A stretch of DNA of 37,975 nucleotides from Clostridia bacterium (GCA_012840125.1 DULZ01000065.1:1-37975), one strand, 5' to 3'. Counted from the first letter of the stretch, positions 28,507-37,975 are shown. Program-made: numbers and translations. The notes: a model not told the origin generated them from the letters alone.

Positions 28507-28855
28507 GGGGGCGTACTGGTTTCGACGGGGGAATGTATTGGCAAAAGTAGCCAGGCGGGGTCCCACTAGCCCGTAACACGGTGGACCAACATTAAGTGCC
28601 AAAGAAAATTACGCTTTAGCTGCTTAATTCAGCTAACCTCCTACCTTCGCTCTCCCGCGGCGTAGGATAGGGGGCCGACCAGCGGGATACTTCAGGCCCA
28701 CGATCCGCTAAGCCTGGGGGAAAACCAGCGGATTAGTCGGAAGTAGATCCTGTCCTTGGGAGCTATTTCCGGCGAAAGTAAAACAAGGACTATCCTGGTA
28801 GAAGCTTTTGTGGGTACTCCTTCGGACAGGGGTTCGACTCCCCTCGCCTCCACCA
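28507..28855 (+). ncRNA. ssrA: Transfer-messenger RNA (tmRNA, SsrA)
   Basis: The 5' end GGGGGCG pairs with CGCCTCC before the 3' CCA, forming the acceptor stem. GACGGGGG (D-loop region) and GGTTCGACTCCCC (T-arm, GTTCGA loop) are present. The tag frame reads GCC AAA GAA AAT TAC GCT TTA GCT GCT TAA at 28598-28627, giving AKENYALAA, a normal degradation tag. A TATAAT sits at 28490-28495. It tags proteins from stalled ribosomes for proteolysis. Its last 33 bases plus four flanking bases recur at 20034-20070. Confidence 0.97.
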
Positions 28856-28917: not shown

Positions 28918-29024
28918 GTGATCGAAAACTGATTTTGATGGTCTTATATGTCATTCCGTCCCAATTTTGGGCACAGCAAAGCTAGGGAAGGCTCTTTCCT
29001 TGAAAATGACTTTTCATTTATCCG

Positions 29025-29231
29025 CTAAACAGCCTTAAGAATGTGCAGGTATGCTCCACAGCGGTTGGTCTGGATCTTGCTGTGGAGTTTGTTTATGTTA
29101 AAGGCAATCGCCAACAAGAAGAGCTCGATTTGCACTTTTGCCTGGCCTCGCATGAGAAAACGGCGAAATCCCATGTCATGTTTAAGTACCCCAATGGCGC
29201 CTTCAACTTGGATGGAGCAATTGACTCGCAA
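29025..29231 (-). pseudogene. C-terminal remnant of an IS1182-like transposase
   Basis: About 69 codons on the minus strand read RVNCSIQVEGAIGVLKHDMG, then FRRFLMRGQAKVQIELFLLA, IAFNINKLHSKI and end HILKAV. This matches the conserved end of IS1182-type DDE transposases ('S.qvEGaFGvlKqdmgFrRFl.RG ... NinKLh.Ki'). Everything upstream of about 29231 is replaced by IS21 sequence on the other strand. No active transposase remains. Confidence 0.65.
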
Positions 29232-29234
29232 TAG

Positions 29235-29774
29235 AATACCTTGGAAGAGTTTGACTCTTCCTCTCAACCCAGTATTGAGGAACGGCTTATCCGGGAACCG
29301 GCCGGCTCGACCTTTGTGGGAAGACATGAGAACGTACTGTTTCTCGGACCACCGGGAGTGGGCAAGACGCATCTGGCGGTAGCCATTGCCATGGAGGCTA
29401 TTGCCCAAGGGTTATCCGTATATTTTGTCTCTCTCCCCCAACTGGAAAACGACTTATGCAAAGCATATGAGGAAAACCGTTTGGACAAGCGGATGAGAAT
29501 ATATCTAAGACCTCGGTTGTTTATCGTGGATGGGGTTGGCTCTCTTCCTCTCGACCCGCTGGCCGCGAATCTGTTTTTCCAGTTGGTTCCGGCTAGGTAT
29601 GAACAAGGGAGCTTCATCTTGACCAGCAACAAGAGCTTTGGCGAGTGGGGCGAATTGCTGGGCGACCCAGTTCTGGCAACAGCCGTATTGGACAGGCTGT
29701 CGCACCACTGTCACGTGATAAACATCCGGGGCAACAGCTACCGATTAAAGGACAAGCTCGAGACCGGAATTTAG
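29235..29774 (+). pseudogene. istB: 5'-truncated istB (IS21-family helper ATPase)
   Basis: The frame opens after a stop at 29232 and reads NTLEEFDSSSQPSIEERLI, lacking roughly the first 70 residues of a 250-residue IstB. Walker A (GPPGVGKTH) is intact. The Walker B region reads LFIVDGVGSLPLD where IstB normally has DE(I/V)G, so the catalytic Glu is lost. ILTSNKSFGEWGE ... ATAVLDRLSHH and the YRLKDK end are typical. No istA is present. The fragment is inert and marks a site used repeatedly by insertion sequences. Confidence 0.85.
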
Positions 29775-29793
29775 GCGACGCCAAGCGCACAGG

Positions 29794-29841
29794 TGGGTCA
29801 AAATTAGTCCGGCGCTAATGGGTCAAATCAATTCCGGCGTT
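29794..29841 (+). repeat. IS21-type terminal direct repeats
   Basis: Two imperfect 23-bp repeats beginning TGGGTCAAA and ending CCGGCG(C/T)T at 29794-29816 and 29819-29841. Multiple such repeats are usual at the right end of IS21 elements, just after istB. The IS edge is near 29845. Confidence 0.65.
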
Positions 29842-29894
29842 GACAACACTTTGGGATAATGAAAATGTCTCCTGCCATAAGAAGTCCATAAGAA

Positions 29895-30227
29895 TTAGAC
29901 TAGATTGTCGATTTTTTCTACGTTGATAGATGCTTCTTGCGGCAAAGCCAATCCTGCCGCCACTTCTATAGTCTTAAGAATACCCGATAATCCCGGACAA
30001 CTGGGGTGGGGAATCGTCTTGGCAAACAGCTGGAAAACCTCTCCTTGGCCTAAAGGTGAAAAAAGCTCTTTAAAGGCATCGGCTTGTTGCAGGCTTTCGG
30101 ACAGTTTTTGATAATTGCCGCAATTGCTCTTAATTTCTAATTTGACCTCACCCCGTCCTTTGGCTTCTGCCAACACTTCAACATAATGCCCGCAAATGCC
30201 ACAATCAATCCTTCCTTTAACCACCAT
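29895..30227 (-). CDS. Small Cys-containing protein of unknown function
   Basis: The 110-residue protein has Cys9 and Cys12 in CGICGH, a third in SNCGNY (36) and a fourth in HPSCPG (77), a set that could bind a metal or [Fe-S] cluster. I do not recognise the family with confidence. It is predicted to be cytoplasmic. It starts at ATG 30227 behind AGGTGG and is the last gene of the methyltransferase operon, 15 bases after the TauE/SafE permease gene, so a role in that pathway (for example handling a product or a metal) is likely but unproven. No terminator is evident before the IS21 edge. Confidence 0.6.
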   Translation of the reverse strand: MVVKGRIDCGICGHYVEVLAEAKGRGEVKLEIKSNCGNYQKLSESLQQADAFKELFSPLGQGEVFQLFAKTIPHPSCPGLSGILKTIEVAAGLALPQEASINVEKIDNLV

Positions 30228-30241
30228 TACACCACCTTTTT

Positions 30242-31015
30242 TTATTTAAATACATCAGTCCACAATTTGAGGGATGACAAGGCCACCACGCAAGTCATCA
30301 TCCAATGGAGTACCTGAACGGGAGCCCGATGGGATACCCTCGAACCCAACTGGGCTGCAGGTACGGAGCCGAGGACTAACGCCACTCCCAGCAACCAAAC
30401 CATCTGTCCGCTGGCAATTTTGCCGATCATGCTCATCAATGAAGTCAACAACACAATGCCCAAGGTAGAGCCAATAGTCACCCGCAACGGTATATTTAAA
30501 ATATACACACAAACCGGTACAAAAATAAAAGCGCCGGGAGCTCCGATCATACCTCCTATGAAGCCAATTATAGCAGCTAACGAAGAAGCCAAAAAGGGAT
30601 TAAAATCAAGTTCCTTTTCATCATTTTCGAGTACTTTTTTGGGCACAAACATAAGGAAAGTAGCAACGGTGGAAATGCCGGCAAAAATCGCTAAGAGTAT
30701 TTTCGGATTGACGTATTGGGAAAGGAAAGCCCCGCCGAATCCGGCTACTGCCGCCGGCAACCCCATGGTTTTGATCACTTTCATGCTGAAAGCTCTTCTT
30801 TTGCGATGAGCGATCGCACCAGAAGCTGCACTGGCGAACACCTGTAAAGTACTGATGGCAGCTACCGTTTTCATATCCAGTGGAGCCAGGTGAAATAAGG
30901 GAGGCACATATAAAAGAAGAGGTATCATCAAAATGGCGCCTCCCAGGCCTAGCAAACCTGAAAAAAATCCTCCCAGCATCCCTAAGACGAATAACAAACC
31001 GAAATATTCCATCAT
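30242..31015 (-). CDS. TauE/SafE family membrane permease
   Basis: The 257-residue protein has about eight membrane helices. GGFFSGLLGLGGAILMIPLLL at the N terminus and GFIGGMIGAPGAFIFVPVCVYIL in the middle are the two repeat signatures of TauE/SafE (the usual GxGGG motifs are altered to GLGGA and GAPGA). Members are implicated in export of sulfite, sulfonates or other organic anions. ATG 31015 has GGGGG eight bases upstream; the longer frame reads back through a hairpin. It may export a product of the methyltransferase pathway; direction and substrate cannot be seen. Confidence 0.8.
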   Translation of the reverse strand: MMEYFGLLFVLGMLGGFFSGLLGLGGAILMIPLLLYVPPLFHLAPLDMKTVAAISTLQVFASAASGAIAHRKRRAFSMKVIKTMGLPAAVAGFGGAFLSQYVNPKILLAIFAGISTVATFLMFVPKKVLENDEKELDFNPFLASSLAAIIGFIGGMIGAPGAFIFVPVCVYILNIPLRVTIGSTLGIVLLTSLMSMIGKIASGQMVWLLGVALVLGSVPAAQLGSRVSHRAPVQVLHWMMTCVVALSSLKLWTDVFK

Positions 31016-31056
31016 ATCCCATACCCCCTGCCAGACAAGTATCTCTATAAGTGAAT

Positions 31057-31083
31057 GACCCTTGTGCCTGCAACACAAGGGTC
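31057..31083. repeat. Intra-operon hairpin between symporter and permease genes
   Basis: GACCCTTGTG and CACAAGGGTC form a perfect 10-bp stem with a 7-base loop. On the minus strand, the direction of the operon, no U-run follows, so it more likely protects the upstream part of the mRNA from decay than ends transcription. Confidence 0.65.
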
Positions 31084-31100
31084 AATTGATGGTTTTTTGC

Positions 31101-32750
31101 TTATTTACCGATGCTGCCGGTGTCCATATCCATTTCTTTGGCTGTCGATATACAGCTTCCCTCCGCCAGCTGGACAAAACTGATCAAAACTATCCAAACC
31201 AGGAATACCAGTATGAACAGGAACATGCCTAATAACCCTTTGTCAAACAGCCAGGCGTAATCTAGTGCTATCAAAAAGAGTAAGGCTATCGCCATCAATG
31301 CACTCCCAAAACCGATGAGCCGTTTCGTACCCGATACATTAGTGCTAAATTTGAGATTGCCGATGCGGCCCACCAGGCTAAATACCACTAGACTTGCAAT
31401 ATTAAAAATCATTCCTACCCAGACAGGGTGAGTATTAAGGTAGAAGTTTTCTGCTGACCAGTTGCCTAGGCTGTTCCACACTAAGCCGCTGGTAAATCCA
31501 AGTACCATGGCTGCTAAAACCCCCTTGCGGGTGGCCACCGGCCAGGCCAGGGCAGCTAATACAGGTGCAAAAGTGGCTCCGTTACGAGCTGTCCAGGCAA
31601 AAACATTCCACCAAGCTGCGTTTTCCGCCCGCAAGAACCCGTAAACCACCATGAGAACAGTTAAAATCACCAGGGATATTTTGGTCCACTTAACTTGGGT
31701 TTCAGGACTGACCTGGGGATAAATGGCTTTGCCAAAATCCTTGCCCAGAGAAGTAGCGCCGGAAAACTGGCAAGGTGCACCCCAGCCTAAAGCCGCCGCC
31801 CAAATCCCCAGGGTGAATACGCCTACCATCCAAGGAGGCAATGTTCCCATCAAATACGTGGGTACCGCTACCAGACCCCTACTGATACCTGGAGTAACTG
31901 CAGCCGCCGACAGACCAATAACTACAGCCATAATAATGAAAATCGCATTAAAGCCTGCCGCAATATATAGCCCTTTCCTCCCTTCTTCCGGGGTTTTACA
32001 AGACAGAGCCATCTGGAAAGCTGCTTGAGCAACCAGCACATTTACCCAGAACGTACCAAACCAAGCCATGATCATCTGCAAACCTACATGGTCCAGGTCA
32101 AACATTTCCGGCTGCGTCAGCTTCAAATGGGCCAGCCCCTCAAGACCGGGGCTGGCAAGAACGGCAATAATGCCCACAACAAACATGGCGAAAAAAGCAA
32201 TAGAATTGGCTGTCTGGGTAAACGCAATCGACCACATGCCTCCTGCTTGTAAATAGACCAAAAGCAACACTGCCGTTACCGTCACCGAAGCCATTAAAGA
32301 CAAGCCCGTCAGTACATGCAGAGCAGAGGCAAAGGCCAAAGCTGTAGCCACTGACCACATAGGAAAAGTAACCGCAGTGATGAAACCAGCGATGCCTAGA
32401 GCCGCCCGGCCGTATGTATCCCCTATTAAACCGGAAATAGTCACGAGCAGCTTTTCCCTAAAAGAGCCTAGCAGCACAATGGCGATGATTAAGATATGGG
32501 TCAATTCTGCCACTCCATACCAGACAGCCGATATTCCTTTGAGATAAGTGAGTTCCAAGATGGAAATATAAGTAGATCCGGCAAACAAACCGGTGATCAT
32601 GAACGCCACGGTCCAGCGGTTGAACTGTCTTCCTCCAACAAAAAAACCTTCACTCTGGGAGACTCTTTTCCTAGCAACCATCCCAGCGCCAATTAAGAGC
32701 ATAGTATAAAGAAGGGCAATGCCTAACATCCAATATCCATAGGCATTCAT
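31101..32750 (-). CDS. Sodium:solute symporter (SSS family)
   Basis: The 549-residue protein has about 13 membrane helices. SEGFFVGGRQFNRWTVAFMITGLFAGSTYI near the N terminus and GGMWSIAFTQTANSIAFFAMF are SSS signatures; the helix-8 region (WAAALGWGAPCQFSGATSLGKDF) carries the conserved small/polar residues seen at the sodium site. It should import an organic acid, amine or similar solute with Na+. ATG 32750 has GGGGG about 11 bases upstream. Its place directly behind three corrinoid-pathway genes makes it the probable uptake system for the methyl-donor substrate. Confidence 0.88.
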   Translation of the reverse strand: MNAYGYWMLGIALLYTMLLIGAGMVARKRVSQSEGFFVGGRQFNRWTVAFMITGLFAGSTYISILELTYLKGISAVWYGVAELTHILIIAIVLLGSFREKLLVTISGLIGDTYGRAALGIAGFITAVTFPMWSVATALAFASALHVLTGLSLMASVTVTAVLLLVYLQAGGMWSIAFTQTANSIAFFAMFVVGIIAVLASPGLEGLAHLKLTQPEMFDLDHVGLQMIMAWFGTFWVNVLVAQAAFQMALSCKTPEEGRKGLYIAAGFNAIFIIMAVVIGLSAAAVTPGISRGLVAVPTYLMGTLPPWMVGVFTLGIWAAALGWGAPCQFSGATSLGKDFGKAIYPQVSPETQVKWTKISLVILTVLMVVYGFLRAENAAWWNVFAWTARNGATFAPVLAALAWPVATRKGVLAAMVLGFTSGLVWNSLGNWSAENFYLNTHPVWVGMIFNIASLVVFSLVGRIGNLKFSTNVSGTKRLIGFGSALMAIALLFLIALDYAWLFDKGLLGMFLFILVFLVWIVLISFVQLAEGSCISTAKEMDMDTGSIGK

Positions 32751-32771
32751 CGATTTCGATTCCCCCTTTAT

Positions 32772-33644
32772 TCAGGATGCATTGCCCGAATGTAGCTCAG
32801 AATATTCACGGTAGTCATTTAAATAGTTTAGCCCCCACTGGTCCTTACCCAACAGCAAATCTGCCCCTTTCACCGTCCGCCGCATGCCTTCCGCGGTCGG
32901 ATCCATAATAACACACGTTAACCCGGCCTTGATGGCCATGGCCAGCATGGTTCGGGTGATACTGGGCCTGTCTGGTAAACCGAAAGAGACATTGCTCACT
33001 CCCAAAATAATGTTCGTACCCAGCTCAGCAACCACTTTTTCAATGGTTTTCAGTGTCACCAGAGCTGCTTGTGGATCTGAACTGACTGTCATAGTTACAC
33101 AATCAATAATCACATCAGAGCGTTCGATTCCCATTTGTTCAGCCCGTTCAACTATTTTGGAGGCAATCGCCAATCTTTTGTCAGGGTTAGGAGCAATCCC
33201 GTCTTCATCCATGACTAATCCCACTACTGCCGCTCCGTGCTCCTTTACCACCGGCAGGATGGATACCAGGGATTTTTCTTCCCCTGTTACTGAGTTCACC
33301 AACGCTTTTCCTTCGTAAACTTCTAAAGCTGCGGCCAGAGCACGTGGATGGCTAGAATCGATACATAACGGTACATCGACAGTCTCTGCAACTAGTTTGA
33401 CTACCTTCGGCAATAACGAAACTTCATCGGCACCGGCTACCCCTACGTTTATATCCAAAGCATCAGCACCATATTTTACCTGGTTAATGGCTTCTCGTTT
33501 AACCAGTTCAAAATCGCCAGCCAGTAAAGCTTCGCCGAGTTTTTTCTTACCAGTAGGGTTAATGCGTTCTCCGATAATTGCCACCGGCAAATCATGGCCA
33601 ATGGTAAGTACTTTGTTCTTACTCCGAATTTCTGTGTAGACCAA
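32772..33644 (-). CDS. Pterin-binding methyltransferase (methyl-corrinoid:tetrahydrofolate type, MtgA/AcsE-like)
   Basis: The 290-residue TIM-barrel protein has the pterin-binding signature: IIGERINPTGKKKLGEAL, GADALDINVG, PLCIDSSHPRAL, GKALVNSVTGEE, ILGVSNVSFGLPDRPS and a terminal VIMDPTAEG. These match AcsE and MtgA, which move methyl groups between corrinoid proteins and tetrahydrofolate. It starts at TTG 33644 with GGAGG five bases upstream. Sitting behind the UroD-like methyltransferase and corrinoid protein genes, it should complete the transfer of the substrate methyl to THF. It lacks the MtrH-type membrane-complex context. Confidence 0.88.
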   Translation of the reverse strand: MVYTEIRSKNKVLTIGHDLPVAIIGERINPTGKKKLGEALLAGDFELVKREAINQVKYGADALDINVGVAGADEVSLLPKVVKLVAETVDVPLCIDSSHPRALAAALEVYEGKALVNSVTGEEKSLVSILPVVKEHGAAVVGLVMDEDGIAPNPDKRLAIASKIVERAEQMGIERSDVIIDCVTMTVSSDPQAALVTLKTIEKVVAELGTNIILGVSNVSFGLPDRPSITRTMLAMAIKAGLTCVIMDPTAEGMRRTVKGADLLLGKDQWGLNYLNDYREYSELHSGNAS

Positions 33645-33659
33645 GTTTTCCTCCCCCTT

Positions 33660-34298
33660 TTAAGCAACTCCTAATAATTGACGCGCCGCCTCTACAGCAG
33701 CGGTCGCATCCCTACCGAAGGCATCTGCACCAATTTGTTTAGCCCAATCCTCGGTAACCGGGGCGCCGCCCACCATAATTTTGACAGAATCCCTCAAACC
33801 CGCATTCTGGATTGCTTTGATAGTCTCTTCCACCCAGTGAAGAGTAGAAGTAATTAAACTGGACATACCTACAATTTGGGGTTGATGCTTCTCAATAGCA
33901 GCCACAAAACTCTCAGGAGAGACATTCACTCCCAAATCCACTACCTCAAATCCAGCTCCCTCCAGCATCATAACCACCAAGTTCTTGCCAATATCATGGA
34001 GATCATCTTTAACAGTGCCTATCACTACTTTCCCTTTGGTTTCTGTCTGCCGCTGGCTTAAAATGGGCCGCAGTACGTCCAATCCTTCGTGGGTGGCCTT
34101 TGCAGCGATCAGGACCTCTGGGATAAAAATCTCATTATTCTTAAATTTCACTCCAATGACATTCATTCCCTCAATTAATCCCTCATTCAGAATGCGGTCT
34201 GGTTCTATTCCTTCATCTAAAGCTTGTTGACAAAGCTTTCTTACCTCTGCCGGTTTGTAAGCGAGCACCGCATTTTTGATGTTCTCGAGCAATTGCAT
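33660..34298 (-). CDS. Methyl-accepting corrinoid (B12-binding) protein
   Basis: The 212-residue protein has the two-domain layout of MtaC/MttC/MtgC. A helical cap comes first (IPEVLIAAKATHEGLDVLRPIL), then a B12-binding Rossmann domain with the lower-ligand motif DLHDIGK (Asp99, His101, Gly104), VVDLGVNVSPE, GMSSLITSTLHWVEETI and a GGAPV loop. The His displaces the base of the cofactor and the cobalt carries the methyl group. ATG 34298 is seven bases from GGAGG; the ATG at 34304 is only one base from it. Confidence 0.93.
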   Translation of the reverse strand: MQLLENIKNAVLAYKPAEVRKLCQQALDEGIEPDRILNEGLIEGMNVIGVKFKNNEIFIPEVLIAAKATHEGLDVLRPILSQRQTETKGKVVIGTVKDDLHDIGKNLVVMMLEGAGFEVVDLGVNVSPESFVAAIEKHQPQIVGMSSLITSTLHWVEETIKAIQNAGLRDSVKIMVGGAPVTEDWAKQIGADAFGRDATAAVEAARQLLGVA

Positions 34299-34328
34299 TG
34301 CCATTCCTCCTTACCTAGTTAATATGGA

Positions 34329-35384
34329 TTAAAGACCAGCTTTAATCAGCTCGGCGCTGTATTCCCTCGCAGTATTCACCATAGCCCTAATGTTTGCATC
34401 AGGCGTCCCATAATCAACCCCCACAGCATCGATCGACAGCTTATCAAGCGGGCCACCAGTATCGATAATTTTGCGCACGTCGTCGGCTATTTCCTCCGCA
34501 GTGCATTTGTACAAACGCACCGGATCAATCCTAGCATTGATGTACACATCCGGCATGAGTTCCCTCACTCGGCCCAAATCAGAATTAGGCCCTACCTCGA
34601 GAAATTCCAGATTCTTGATTTTGCTATAACCCTCCACAACATTATTCACCGAACCGCAATGGTGAATGCCAAAGGGCCGCATCGCCTCCGCCAGTCTCTG
34701 CTCATAAGGTAGGACAAATCTTTCGTAAGCTTCATTGGAAATCTGAGCTACGGTACAGTTGGGCAGCACATACATTTCCGGTGGAGCCATCGGGGTTACT
34801 GACGACGCTAGGGTACCGGTTCTTTTCCGGACATATGTAGCTAGACGTATGATGCTTTCCAAACATATTTTCATCAGCTTGTGTACCAGCTGAGGATTTT
34901 CATAGAAGTCGAGATACAGCTGGTCGCCCCTGATTTTTAAAGCCAGATTTAGAATACCGGTAGTATTGATGTTACCTGTAACCCGACCATATTTCTCCTC
35001 AAGATAATCCATTTGCCGAATAATCTCGGTCATGGGATAACTGTTTTCAATATCCGGTACCGTCAGTTTTTCAATTTCTTTTTCCGACAAGTTGGCAGGA
35101 TTAGCCCACGGTAATGCATCATCGAAAAAGGTAATTTCACAGCCGAACATTTCGGGCAATAGCACCATACCGTAATCAATAAACGGATTGGGTTCCGGAT
35201 TAGGATTGCCCATACCCAAATCGCCAAAACGTTCATAGAGAATCTTTTGCTGCTTCAGGTTAGCTTCTACCCGGTAGTCTGGGTCATGGTAATACTGCTT
35301 GTTATATGAGATACCATAATTACGCCACCACCAGCTGGCGTACATGCTCACACTCACCGGAATATGCTTGATTTTCCGGCTCAT
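34329..35384 (-). CDS. UroD-fold corrinoid-dependent methyltransferase (substrate:corrinoid)
   Basis: The 351-residue protein belongs to the uroporphyrinogen-decarboxylase-like family, which includes MtaA, CmuA and the MtvB-type O-demethylases. The presumed zinc ligands are visible as His241-x-Cys243 (HHCGSVNN) and a later Cys294 (LYKCTAEE), as in MtaA. It is therefore a methyltransferase, not a haem enzyme. It probably moves the methyl of an unknown substrate onto the corrinoid protein encoded 30 bases downstream. A His/Trp-rich N terminus (MYASWWWRNYGISYNKQYYH) is unusual and may shape the substrate site. ATG 35384 has GGAAGGGGG upstream; the longer frame would begin upstream of the sigma-54 promoter and is excluded. 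Confidence 0.85.
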   Translation of the reverse strand: MSRKIKHIPVSVSMYASWWWRNYGISYNKQYYHDPDYRVEANLKQQKILYERFGDLGMGNPNPEPNPFIDYGMVLLPEMFGCEITFFDDALPWANPANLSEKEIEKLTVPDIENSYPMTEIIRQMDYLEEKYGRVTGNINTTGILNLALKIRGDQLYLDFYENPQLVHKLMKICLESIIRLATYVRKRTGTLASSVTPMAPPEMYVLPNCTVAQISNEAYERFVLPYEQRLAEAMRPFGIHHCGSVNNVVEGYSKIKNLEFLEVGPNSDLGRVRELMPDVYINARIDPVRLYKCTAEEIADDVRKIIDTGGPLDKLSIDAVGVDYGTPDANIRAMVNTAREYSAELIKAGL

Positions 35385-35420
35385 ATCTAGTCCCCCTTCC
35401 AGTTTTTGATGACTATGACC

Positions 35421-35436
35421 AGCAACTTCTGTGCCA
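35421..35436 (-). promoter_or_regulatory. Sigma-54 (-24/-12) promoter of the methyltransferase operon
   Basis: On the minus strand TGGCACAGAAGTTGCT matches the -24/-12 consensus (TGGCAC-N5-TTGC[A/T]), with the invariant GG and GC ten bases apart. Transcription would begin about 12 bases downstream, roughly 25 bases before the ATG at 35384. The adjacent regulator is a sigma-54 activator. Confidence 0.9.
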
Positions 35437-35474
35437 AAGTCTAAAACGCGCCATTTCAATAGGTGCAAAAAAAA

Positions 35475-35498
35475 TAGCGGAACAATTGAGTTCCACTA
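35475..35498. promoter_or_regulatory. Activator site, proximal inverted repeat
   Basis: TAGCGGAAC, six bases, GTTCCACTA: nine-base arms with one mismatch. The centre lies about 58 bp upstream of the sigma-54 promoter. It shares the GGAAC/GTTCC arms of the repeat at 35579-35596. Confidence 0.75.
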
Positions 35499-35578
35499 TG
35501 GTCTATAATTGGATTATAAATTCTGAAAAATCTGTATAATCTTGCTTGCTGGCGGTGCTGGTACTCCCAAATTCCGGG

Positions 35579-35596
35579 TGGAACTGAAAAGTTCCA
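35579..35596. promoter_or_regulatory. Activator site, distal inverted repeat
   Basis: TGGAACT, GAAA, AGTTCCA: perfect seven-base arms. It is 101 bp centre-to-centre from the proximal repeat and just downstream of the regulator's stop codon, a normal enhancer distance for a sigma-54 activator. Confidence 0.75.
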
Positions 35597-35607
35597 CTAT
35601 ATTATTC

Positions 35608-37689
35608 CTATAAGTCATAATGCTTACGTTTTCGTATAACGGTCGTATGGGTTATCCCTAACAGTTCAGCAGTCTGACGGGTGCTCATCCCTTTCTCCAG
35701 CGCTTTCTTCAGCAGCGCCTTTTCCATTAGCTCTAGACCCTCCTGCCAGGAGACTATTTCTTTGATCCTAATCTCTACTGTTTGAGCGTTTTTTTCTCCT
35801 TGCCCCAAATGCTCCGGCAAATGCGAAGCATCGATTACTTCACCCTGGCTTAATATTACAGCTCTCTCAACGATATTTTCCAATTCCCGCACATTGCCCG
35901 GCCATGAATAGCGCTCGAATATTTTATAAACCTCAGGGCTGATCACTTTATTTTTTCCATACTGGCTATTATATTTGGCCAGGAAGTGGTTGGCGAGGGG
36001 CACGATGTCTTCCGGCCGCTTTCTTAGAGGGGGAATTTCTATTTGCACCACATTCAAGCGGTAAAACAAATCCTCTCGAAATTCCTGCCTTGCCACCATT
36101 TCCTTTAGGTTCCGGTTGGTGGCAGCAATAATCCGCACATTCAATTTAACCGGTTCAACTCCTCCTACCCGGTAAATCACCTTGTCCTGCAGGGCTCGCA
36201 AAAGCTTTACTTGCAAGTTCAAAGGTAATTCACCAATCTCGTCCAAAAACAACGTGCCTCCATCAGCTGCTTCCATTAAGCCTATTTTCCCTGTTTTTCT
36301 AGCCCCAGTAAAGGCTCCTTTCTCATAACCGAAGAGTTCAGACTCCAGTAATGTCTCGGGAATGGCACCGCAGTTCACGGTAATAAAAGGACCACCTTGC
36401 CTATCACTTAAGCTATGAATGGTTTTAGCTACTACCTCTTTACCGACCCCTGACTCGCCGGTGATCAAAACCGTGGAATCCACTTTTGACACTCTCACCA
36501 CCAGCTCCATAACAGAGTACATAGCTGGGCTTTTAGTAATGATTTTATCGGTTAAAATTTTGGATCTCAGTTCTTTAAGCTCTTCCGAAAACCGCTGCTT
36601 TTCCTCCTCCACATGGGCTACTTGGGATTTCAAGCAATTAAGTTCAGTCATGTCTCTCAGGTTGAAAATGACCTGAACTAGCTGGTTTTCATTATCAAAA
36701 CAAGGGTTGCCGGTAATTACCACTTCCTGCCCACTTTGTAAAATACACGCCCTGGTCGATGACTGTTTTGAAATTTTGATGATTTTGACCATATCCGCTA
36801 GCTGGTGAGCCAGTTCTGAGTTTAGTTCGTTCAGGGAAACACATGGAGAACATGTTTCCTGTATTAGTTCCAATGCACTACGATTTGCTCTCAGTACCTT
36901 TTGCTGGCTATCCACCACTATGATGCCGTCATAAGAGGATTCAATAATATTGTCCAATTGGTCTTTCAGTTCCCGTACCCTGGAAAGCTCTAGAATTAGG
37001 TTTTCCATTTCTGATAAGTCCTGCAGCACTATGACAGCCCCGACAACTGCCCGCCCACTCATAATGGGGGTTGCATTAGCCGCCACGTGTCTGCCGTTTA
37101 TTTCAATTTTAAATCCTAAACGAGGCGTGCCTTTTAGCACCTCTTTCCATCCTTGGAAAGGGACTATTTCCGCTATAGGCTTACCCGTTACTTCCTGAGT
37201 TCTTAACCCTAACAGTTTTTCTGCGCCTTTATTAAACAAATAGATATGACCCCCACTATCATAAGCAATGATAGCGTGGCTAACAGACTGCAGCACCACA
37301 TTTAATTCGTTTTTTGTTTCTTCCCATGAGCGGTAGACCCTTTTTATCAACTCGACTTTGGAAAGGATACCCGACAATCGATTGTTCTGATCTATGACTA
37401 GCAGCCGCTCCATTTCTGGGATTTGAGCGATATATTCCAAGTCTGTATCTTCTGAAATTATACCTGGAGGATCATCCATGTACGCTTCGATTTTTTCTTC
37501 CTTGGGAATGTCGTACAATAAGCAACTCAATATCTTTGAAGAAGTAATAATACCTACGACGTTTCCCTTGTAGTCCACTACAGGAGCACAGTTAACATCT
37601 GCTTTGAGAAACAGCTTTCCCACTTCGGAAATGGTGTTATCAGGCCGCACCGTGGCAGGATTACAAAGCATAACTTGTTTTGCTTTCAC
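35608..37689 (-). CDS. Sigma-54-dependent activator with CBS, PAS and AAA+ domains
   Basis: The 693-residue protein has two CBS motifs (about 1-118), two PAS domains (about 125-230 and 240-350), a short coiled segment (about 355-378), a sigma-54 AAA+ domain (about 383-620) and a C-terminal helix-turn-helix (about 667-690, TRQTAELLGITHTTVIRKRK). Walker A is GESGVGKE (411-418), the sigma-54 contact loop GAFTGA is intact (458-463) and Walker B is GTLFLDE. CBS pairs bind adenosyl nucleotides, and PAS domains sense ligands or redox. GTG 37689 lies eight bases from AGGAGGGG. It precedes and surely controls the methyltransferase operon through the 35475-35596 repeats. Confidence 0.92.
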   Translation of the reverse strand: MKAKQVMLCNPATVRPDNTISEVGKLFLKADVNCAPVVDYKGNVVGIITSSKILSCLLYDIPKEEKIEAYMDDPPGIISEDTDLEYIAQIPEMERLLVIDQNNRLSGILSKVELIKRVYRSWEETKNELNVVLQSVSHAIIAYDSGGHIYLFNKGAEKLLGLRTQEVTGKPIAEIVPFQGWKEVLKGTPRLGFKIEINGRHVAANATPIMSGRAVVGAVIVLQDLSEMENLILELSRVRELKDQLDNIIESSYDGIIVVDSQQKVLRANRSALELIQETCSPCVSLNELNSELAHQLADMVKIIKISKQSSTRACILQSGQEVVITGNPCFDNENQLVQVIFNLRDMTELNCLKSQVAHVEEEKQRFSEELKELRSKILTDKIITKSPAMYSVMELVVRVSKVDSTVLITGESGVGKEVVAKTIHSLSDRQGGPFITVNCGAIPETLLESELFGYEKGAFTGARKTGKIGLMEAADGGTLFLDEIGELPLNLQVKLLRALQDKVIYRVGGVEPVKLNVRIIAATNRNLKEMVARQEFREDLFYRLNVVQIEIPPLRKRPEDIVPLANHFLAKYNSQYGKNKVISPEVYKIFERYSWPGNVRELENIVERAVILSQGEVIDASHLPEHLGQGEKNAQTVEIRIKEIVSWQEGLELMEKALLKKALEKGMSTRQTAELLGITHTTVIRKRKHYDL

Positions 37690-37975
37690 CTAAAATCCCC
37701 CTCCTGGCCAGAAATCCACACAATCAATTTGCATAGCAAACTCCATGCCTAAGAACAATTAACTTCACCCTTTTGTCATTGACCTTTTTATCCTCTCTCC
37801 AACAAAAAGAAATATTCCAAACTAATCCAGCTAAACAGAGCTTCCTATGCTGTTAATGGCCATGATAAAATCGACATAAATGGTCACGAAAAACCCGCAA
37901 AACCGGTCATTTAGAAAAGGAAAAAAGCTCGTTCCCTACAACATTTTCATTGGAACCAAAACATTAAAGAAGGGA
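37690..37975. other. Upstream region of the sigma-54 activator, no gene seen
   Basis: AT-rich sequence to the window end without a supportable gene. A weak promoter reading toward the activator is possible (TTGTTC at 37758-37753 and TATGCA at 37735-37730, 17-bp spacing). Confidence 0.4.

Follow-up and report, generated by a model that had tools for sequence, protein, structure and literature searches.

A putative sigma-54-controlled corrinoid demethylation operon of a Clostridia bacterium with a methyltransferase candidate from a separate UroD lineage

Methyltransferases of the UroD fold help to set which methylated compounds anaerobes consume, and many of their clades are without an assigned substrate. 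We describe an operon in a DNA stretch of 37,975 nucleotides from a Clostridia bacterium (GCA_012840125.1 DULZ01000065.1:1-37975; the whole stretch is called the window below), in which a UroD-fold protein is encoded together with a corrinoid-binding protein (CorrP) and a methyl-corrinoid:tetrahydrofolate (H4folate) methyltransferase (MeTr). The closest described systems are likewise built from a substrate:corrinoid protein methyltransferase (MT1), a corrinoid protein (CP) and a second methyltransferase (MT2). MtvABC of Moorella, Odm/Vdm of Acetobacterium and MtoABCD of Methermicoccus share with the operon a UroD-superfamily MT1, a small corrinoid protein, an MtrH/MeTr-like MT2 and a RACo-type activase, the last being present here in related operons. 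The Cdm system (CdmBCA) of Acetobacterium dehalogenans also has three components and a UroD-fold MT1, and CdmB was reported as nearest to MtoB and close to MtvB/OdmB/VdmB (PMC13222342). MtaA/MtbA and the Mlp proteins of type 1 mlp clusters have the UroD fold and the H-x-C motif in common with the window protein, and CmuA of Methylorubrum, acting on chloromethane, is a UroD-domain methyltransferase paired with a corrinoid domain. The quaternary amine systems of the MtgBC/MttB type are similar in their PRK07535-type MT2 and in the corrinoid protein, which resembles MtgC and MtbC at scores below the cut-offs.

In contrast to the phenolic O-demethylases, the operon has SSS and TauE instead of MFS transporters as well as a sigma-54 activator, and its MT1 candidate is shorter, has H-x-C and lies in a UroD clade well separated from the O-demethylase-like set. 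Cdm, compared here by description only, differs in its gaseous substrate (chloromethane), for which no importer is required. Type 1 MGCs contain at least two Mlps, CorrP and a Ram protein with no H4folate methyltransferase nearby (PMC10418091), whereas the window operon has one UroD and one MeTr, and the tree excludes the grouping. CmuA is a fusion, while the window UroD is unfused and groups apart, and MT1 in the window would be of the UroD fold and not MttB. Open-access literature searches (subscription papers were outside the scope), including those for DUF6951, TauE with corrinoid operons and methoxyacetate, gave no description of the operon. The MT1/CP/MT2 type of system is already known; new, as far as testable, would be the different UroD lineage as MT1, the frequent SSS symporter and the TauE permease that seems to have joined twice. 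We consider it rather probable that this sigma-54-controlled operon serves to use a soluble methylated compound as a methyl source through corrinoid demethylation, with an MT1 from a separate UroD lineage.

Six genes on the minus strand at 29895-35384 were borne out by open reading frame (ORF) calls and Pfam where an initial annotation of this DNA had placed them. Its right end, 35384, coincides with the likely UroD start, but the adjacent activator gene (35608-37689) had been omitted. The features are as follows.

35608-37689, minus strand: sigma-54-dependent activator, PrdR-like, CBS-PAS-AAA+-HTH (Pfam Sigma54_activat 242 bits; PrdR model 516 bits, below the cut-off of 795)
35421-35436, minus strand: sigma-54 (-24/-12) promoter TGGCACAGAAGTTGCT (11/11 consensus; begins 52 nt ahead of the UroD ATG)
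34329-35384, minus strand: UroD-fold methyltransferase, proposed MT1 (351 amino acids (aa); H241-x-C243; Pfam URO-D 80 bits)
33660-34304, minus strand: corrinoid-binding protein, proposed methyl carrier (214 aa; Pfam B12-binding_2 and B12-binding)
32772-33644, minus strand: MeTr, predicted MT2 (290 aa; Pterin_bind; PRK07535 281 bits, above the cut-off of 259)
32751-32771, minus strand: MeTr/SSS junction (21 bp here), the site of DUF1638 and RACo in related operons
31101-32750, minus strand: SSS-family sodium:solute symporter (549 aa; Pfam SSF; TIGR00813 below cut-off)
30242-31078, minus strand: TauE/SafE-family permease (Pfam TauE 156 bits; an ATG near 31018 is a possible true start)
29895-30227, minus strand: DUF6951 small protein (110 aa; PF22263 110 bits)

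An MT1 candidate, a B12-binding carrier and a pterin-binding MT2 are therefore found within one operon, and the Pfam and NCBIfam families support the full methyl-transfer route, packed with transporter genes, that had been claimed from the sequence; the small protein, annotated only as Cys-containing, belongs to DUF6951 (PF22263). The best NCBIfam matches of the corrinoid protein are MtgC (221 bits), pyl_corrinoid and MtbC, each below cut-off, and the nearest solved relatives of the symporter, at a weak match, are choline transporters of the SLC5A7 type. Because the gaps among the six genes, by ORF bounds, are only 14-24 bp, they likely form one transcript. The Rfam scan of window positions 29000-37975 returned zero RNA elements.

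Both a -24/-12 promoter and an adjacent gene of an AAA+ activator mark the operon as sigma-54-regulated. The site at 35436-35421 is the sole 11/11 match on both strands of the window, and this score was reached in 0 of 2000 shuffles of the region. Sites of 9-10/11 precede UroD in eight of the nine related loci described below; in the ninth (L038) the operon opens with TauE, and an 11/11 site lies ahead of that gene. The activator gene is directly upstream in every ortholog locus, and in the window it directly precedes UroD. The ATG at 35384 follows GGAAGGGGG and is likely the true UroD start, as the perfect promoter lies upstream of it and the ortholog starts match its position; an alternative longer TTG ORF, reaching to 35468, crosses the promoter. 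A second sigma-54-like site (10/11) at 34303 overlaps the start of the corrinoid gene.

Relatives were found by a scan of named genomes and by searches of further genomes, which gave nine loci beside the window, ten in all. The UroD-CorrP-MeTr core with the upstream activator gene is kept in all nine, with UroD identities of 69-82%, and each of the three core proteins forms a separate, well supported operon clade. The carriers are Paradesulfitobacterium ferrireducens (L031), Desulfosporosinus (L033, L035, L036, L037), Moorella stamsii (L034), genome G390 (L040) and two metagenome-assembled genomes (L032, L038); several of them are Desulfitobacterium-like, and a further genome, G371, is very similar to Moorella stamsii. 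With its conservation in culturable Moorella, Desulfosporosinus and Paradesulfitobacterium, its dedicated sigma-54 promoter, its two transporters and a UroD clade that, as sampled here, has no known member, the operon provides a testable entry to an unassigned UroD branch and perhaps to a methyl donor not described before. The fullest gene order, that of L031, reads sigma-54 activator, UroD, corrinoid protein, MeTr, DUF1638, RACo, SSS, TauE and DUF6951. An SSS gene is located near UroD in seven of the ten loci, and three Desulfosporosinus loci run on into co-directional redox genes (ferredoxin, flavoprotein and formate-dehydrogenase-like). Downstream of the operon in Moorella (L034 14445-15863) and in G390 (L040 15427-16800) are genes of a short CODH/prismane-like protein (~470 aa), a flavoprotein and formate-dehydrogenase-like proteins. 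Next to the operon, Moorella stamsii also encodes a further sigma-54 activator, an OsmC-like protein and a further SSS symporter with 55% identity to that of the window (L034 1995-6502).

This gene content bears on the direction in which the system works. RdhUVW of Desulfitobacterium is a CorrP-UroD-MeTr trio that is co-expressed with reductive dehalogenases and has a proposed role in corrinoid assembly (PMC9888536). By analogy, the operon could act in reverse or in cofactor maintenance, methylating or maturing something rather than using a methyl donor. However, the two transporters, the dedicated sigma-54 activator and the formate-dehydrogenase-like redox genes of the relatives suit catabolism better, and such a role appears quite improbable.

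The phylogeny of METHYLTRANSFERASE was built with UroD-family proteins from related genomes, labelled by their neighbour genes, and with MtaA (PDB 4ay7) and CmuA (pCMU01) as references; 102 sequences entered a fast tree and 49 a careful one. CdmB, MecE, MtoB and MtvB were outside the tree, and the separation from exactly those proteins is indirect; the label of the O-demethylase-like clade derives from its corrinoid/MeTr neighbours and its lack of the H-x-C motif, not from a named reference sequence. The approximately unbiased test (p-AU) rejected the grouping of the window UroD with this clade (1e-12), with the MtaA group (1.4e-4) and with CmuA (2e-25). The scores of the MtaA/CmuA family models were also low, with 56 bits against a cut-off of 235 for TIGR01463 and 67 against 244 for PRK06252. 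A type 1 mlp cluster was rejected as well, there being one UroD, a MeTr gene and no local RACo. According to the initial annotation, its reading would be refuted by a placement of UroD in a family of known substrate; this comparison, made in part, rejected MtaA, CmuA and the O-demethylase-like clade as closest relatives and did not refute the reading. As judged by the tree, the putative MT1 belongs to a separate UroD lineage, apart from the MtaA, CmuA and O-demethylase-like lineages tested.

The same results bear on two known kinds of substrate. An ordinary phenolic O-demethylase operon of the MtvB/OdmB/MtoB type would have the identical three-part MT1-CorrP-MT2 architecture, the relatives do carry RACo, and such systems commonly act on methoxylated aromatics (PMC8630106, PMC13222342). 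Against this, the window UroD is placed outside the O-demethylase-like clade (as named by context), has H-x-C where that clade has AEG and, with 351 aa, is shorter than MtoB of 47-48 kDa (PMC8630106), which leaves this kind of operon very unlikely. Dehalogenation of methyl halides or dichloromethane by a Cdm- or Mec-like system would fit the Desulfitobacterium-like character of several relatives, and UroD-fold haloalkane methyltransferases may have multiple origins, with uncharacterised clades in Desulfitobacterium, Dehalobacter and Formimonas (PMC13222342). Nevertheless, a membrane-permeable gas requires no SSS importer, and the UroD does not group with CmuA (CdmB and MecE being outside the comparison), so that dehalogenation, too, has little probability.

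In the careful tree the operon UroDs share a clade (100/97) with five UroD-like genes. The clusters of these sister genes contain TRAP or ABC transporters, mannonate/altronate dehydratase and NagA/NagB-like or glycosidase-like genes (loci L042, L044, L043, L045 and L030; in two cases three UroD paralogs lie together). As a check for a hidden corrinoid partner, corrinoid-binding matches were counted in sister-gene genomes: one in G302, one in G202 and eleven in G086. A plasmid tblastn found one sister gene, and a phylum-wide profile search aimed at widening the sister clade found only 8 carriers among 399 genomes; the GTDB classes of the window and of G086 comprise 3 and 4 genomes, respectively. 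It is possible, though doubtful, that the window UroD represents a new, previously unrecognised class of corrinoid-dependent MT1 that was recruited, separately from the MtaA, CmuA and O-demethylase lineages, out of a sugar-acid-linked UroD clade, and that it demethylates a compound so far unrecorded as a corrinoid methyl donor, for example an O-methyl sugar acid or a small methoxy acid. If this were true, related methylated substrates may be processed by the products of the sister genes that Bacillota carry in uronate and sugar clusters. We would only tentatively name methylated organic or sugar acids as the substrate class. The sugar-acid genes around the sister genes and the ability of both transporter families of the operon to carry anions give a slight edge to an O-methyl organic or sugar acid, the main alternative being a methylated sulfur compound.

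The active site and the TauE permease are relevant to this alternative. The AlphaFold (AF2) model of the UroD protein (predicted local distance difference test, pLDDT, 83) has its best fold matches in MtaA and UROD, at a template modelling (TM) score of ~0.7. Sequence searches of the PDB with the protein or its profile gave no true relative, the relatives coming from the fold search only, and the PDB matches included no structure of CdmB. H241 and C243, invariant in the operon family, align with the H-x-C of MtaA, in which we take H-x-C...C to be the zinc ligands; an MtaA-like zinc site is possible. TauE occurs in four of the ten loci and in two distinct versions. Orthologs of the window version are found in L031 (72%) and L033 (66-67%). 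The TauE of L038 is only ~36% identical to that of the window and differently placed, as the first gene behind the perfect sigma-54 promoter, and TauE has therefore probably joined the system twice. The partnership with TauE proposed in the initial annotation is real in that both versions are linked to the operon, but it is not essential. The accompanying idea of a sulfur-containing product has nothing behind it except the TauE/SafE family name and the H-x-C motif, and the sister genes seem to indicate organic or sugar acids at least as well. Demethylation of a methylthio acid, dimethylsulfoniopropionate or an S-methyl thiol, with a sulfur-containing acid leaving through TauE, would agree with the family membership, with the H-x-C motif of the thiol-handling MtaA lineage and with the repeated joining of TauE. 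On the other side, most orthologs are without TauE, the nearest UroD relatives stand beside sugar acid genes rather than sulfur genes, and conservation does not extend to the third zinc Cys; we regard this alternative as rather unlikely.

The claim that the operon has no RamA-like protein is true of the window, but RACo follows MeTr in seven of the nine orthologous loci. The stretch between MeTr and SSS, 21 bp in the window, measures ~2.6-2.8 kb with DUF1638 and RACo in L031, L032 and L033. Moorella has no local RACo, and a transposase-like gene occupies its place in G390. Given the seven related operons with RACo behind MeTr, a local loss is the best reading of its absence from the window operon; DUF1638 has zero copies in the whole window genome. 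The two RACo genes of this genome lie in the CODH/ACS cluster (contig C61) and, unlinked to the operon, on contig C88, with clpC- and radA-like genes close by. The C88 RACo clusters at 98% support with a RACo from the Paradesulfitobacterium genome, to which it is 57% identical and whose gene belongs to a UroD/CorrP/MeTr cluster. Since the eight corrinoid-binding domain matches in the genome outnumber its two RACo genes, a shared activase is plausible, and one RACo serving several systems in trans is likely the simplest reading. A second UroD/CorrP/MeTr cluster of the same genome (L052, contig C93, 1364-6078), of the O-demethylase-like clade, is likewise without a local RACo.

In the proposed demethylation pathway, the sigma-54 activator would induce the operon and the SSS symporter would import the methylated compound. 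The UroD-fold enzyme would transfer the methyl group to the corrinoid protein in its Co(I) state, and MeTr would hand it on to H4folate. Methyl-H4folate could then feed the Wood-Ljungdahl pathway, whose CODH/ACS genes are present in the genome, while TauE may export the acid left after demethylation, or another anion. The RACo from contig C88 would reactivate the corrinoid protein, the operon's own RACo and DUF1638 having presumably been lost. Gene content, the conservation of operon and promoter, the phylogenetic position and the absence of RACo are facts at the sequence level, from which we infer all catalytic steps, the direction of transport and the activation in trans.

Several points weigh against this pathway. 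Three Desulfosporosinus loci have no SSS near the operon and TauE is missing in six of the ten loci, and the roles of the transporters are for that reason not fixed. Around the genes of the UroD proteins most closely related to the operon family, the fetched stretches contain no corrinoid gene, so the ancestral reaction of the clade may have been something else. The third MtaA ligand aligns near position 323, where the window protein has Val and most orthologs Val or Leu; Cys is found there only in Moorella (L034), L038 and G390 (L040).

The DUF6951 protein has four conserved potential ligands in the alignment (C12, C36, H74 and C77), and its AF2 model reaches a pLDDT of 93.8. The top Foldseek matches of the model are nearly all IscU/SufU (best E 0.023, TM ~0.5), with a ligand spacing near that of IscU; comparison of sequence profiles with E. 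coli IscU gave no similarity. An IscU/SufU-like fold is predicted from the model. DUF6951 occurs in 51 of 399 phylum genomes. Outside these operons, the genes of its closest relatives immediately follow those for methylene-H4folate reductase; further copies neighbour corrinoid genes (L084, L096, L097), although many sampled copies have unrelated neighbours. Our guess would be a function close to methyl-H4folate or Fe-S chemistry.

The GTDB class of the window genome is represented by three genomes in the collection, and both relatives are without the UroD gene. As orthologs of 69-82% identity sit in other lineages, horizontal transfer is likely. A tmRNA gene (tag AKENYALAA) adjoins smpB, followed by a shortened IS21 IstB-like gene (window 28507-28855 and 29241-29774), and since the operon is situated just past these genes, it could belong to an island that inserted at tmRNA.

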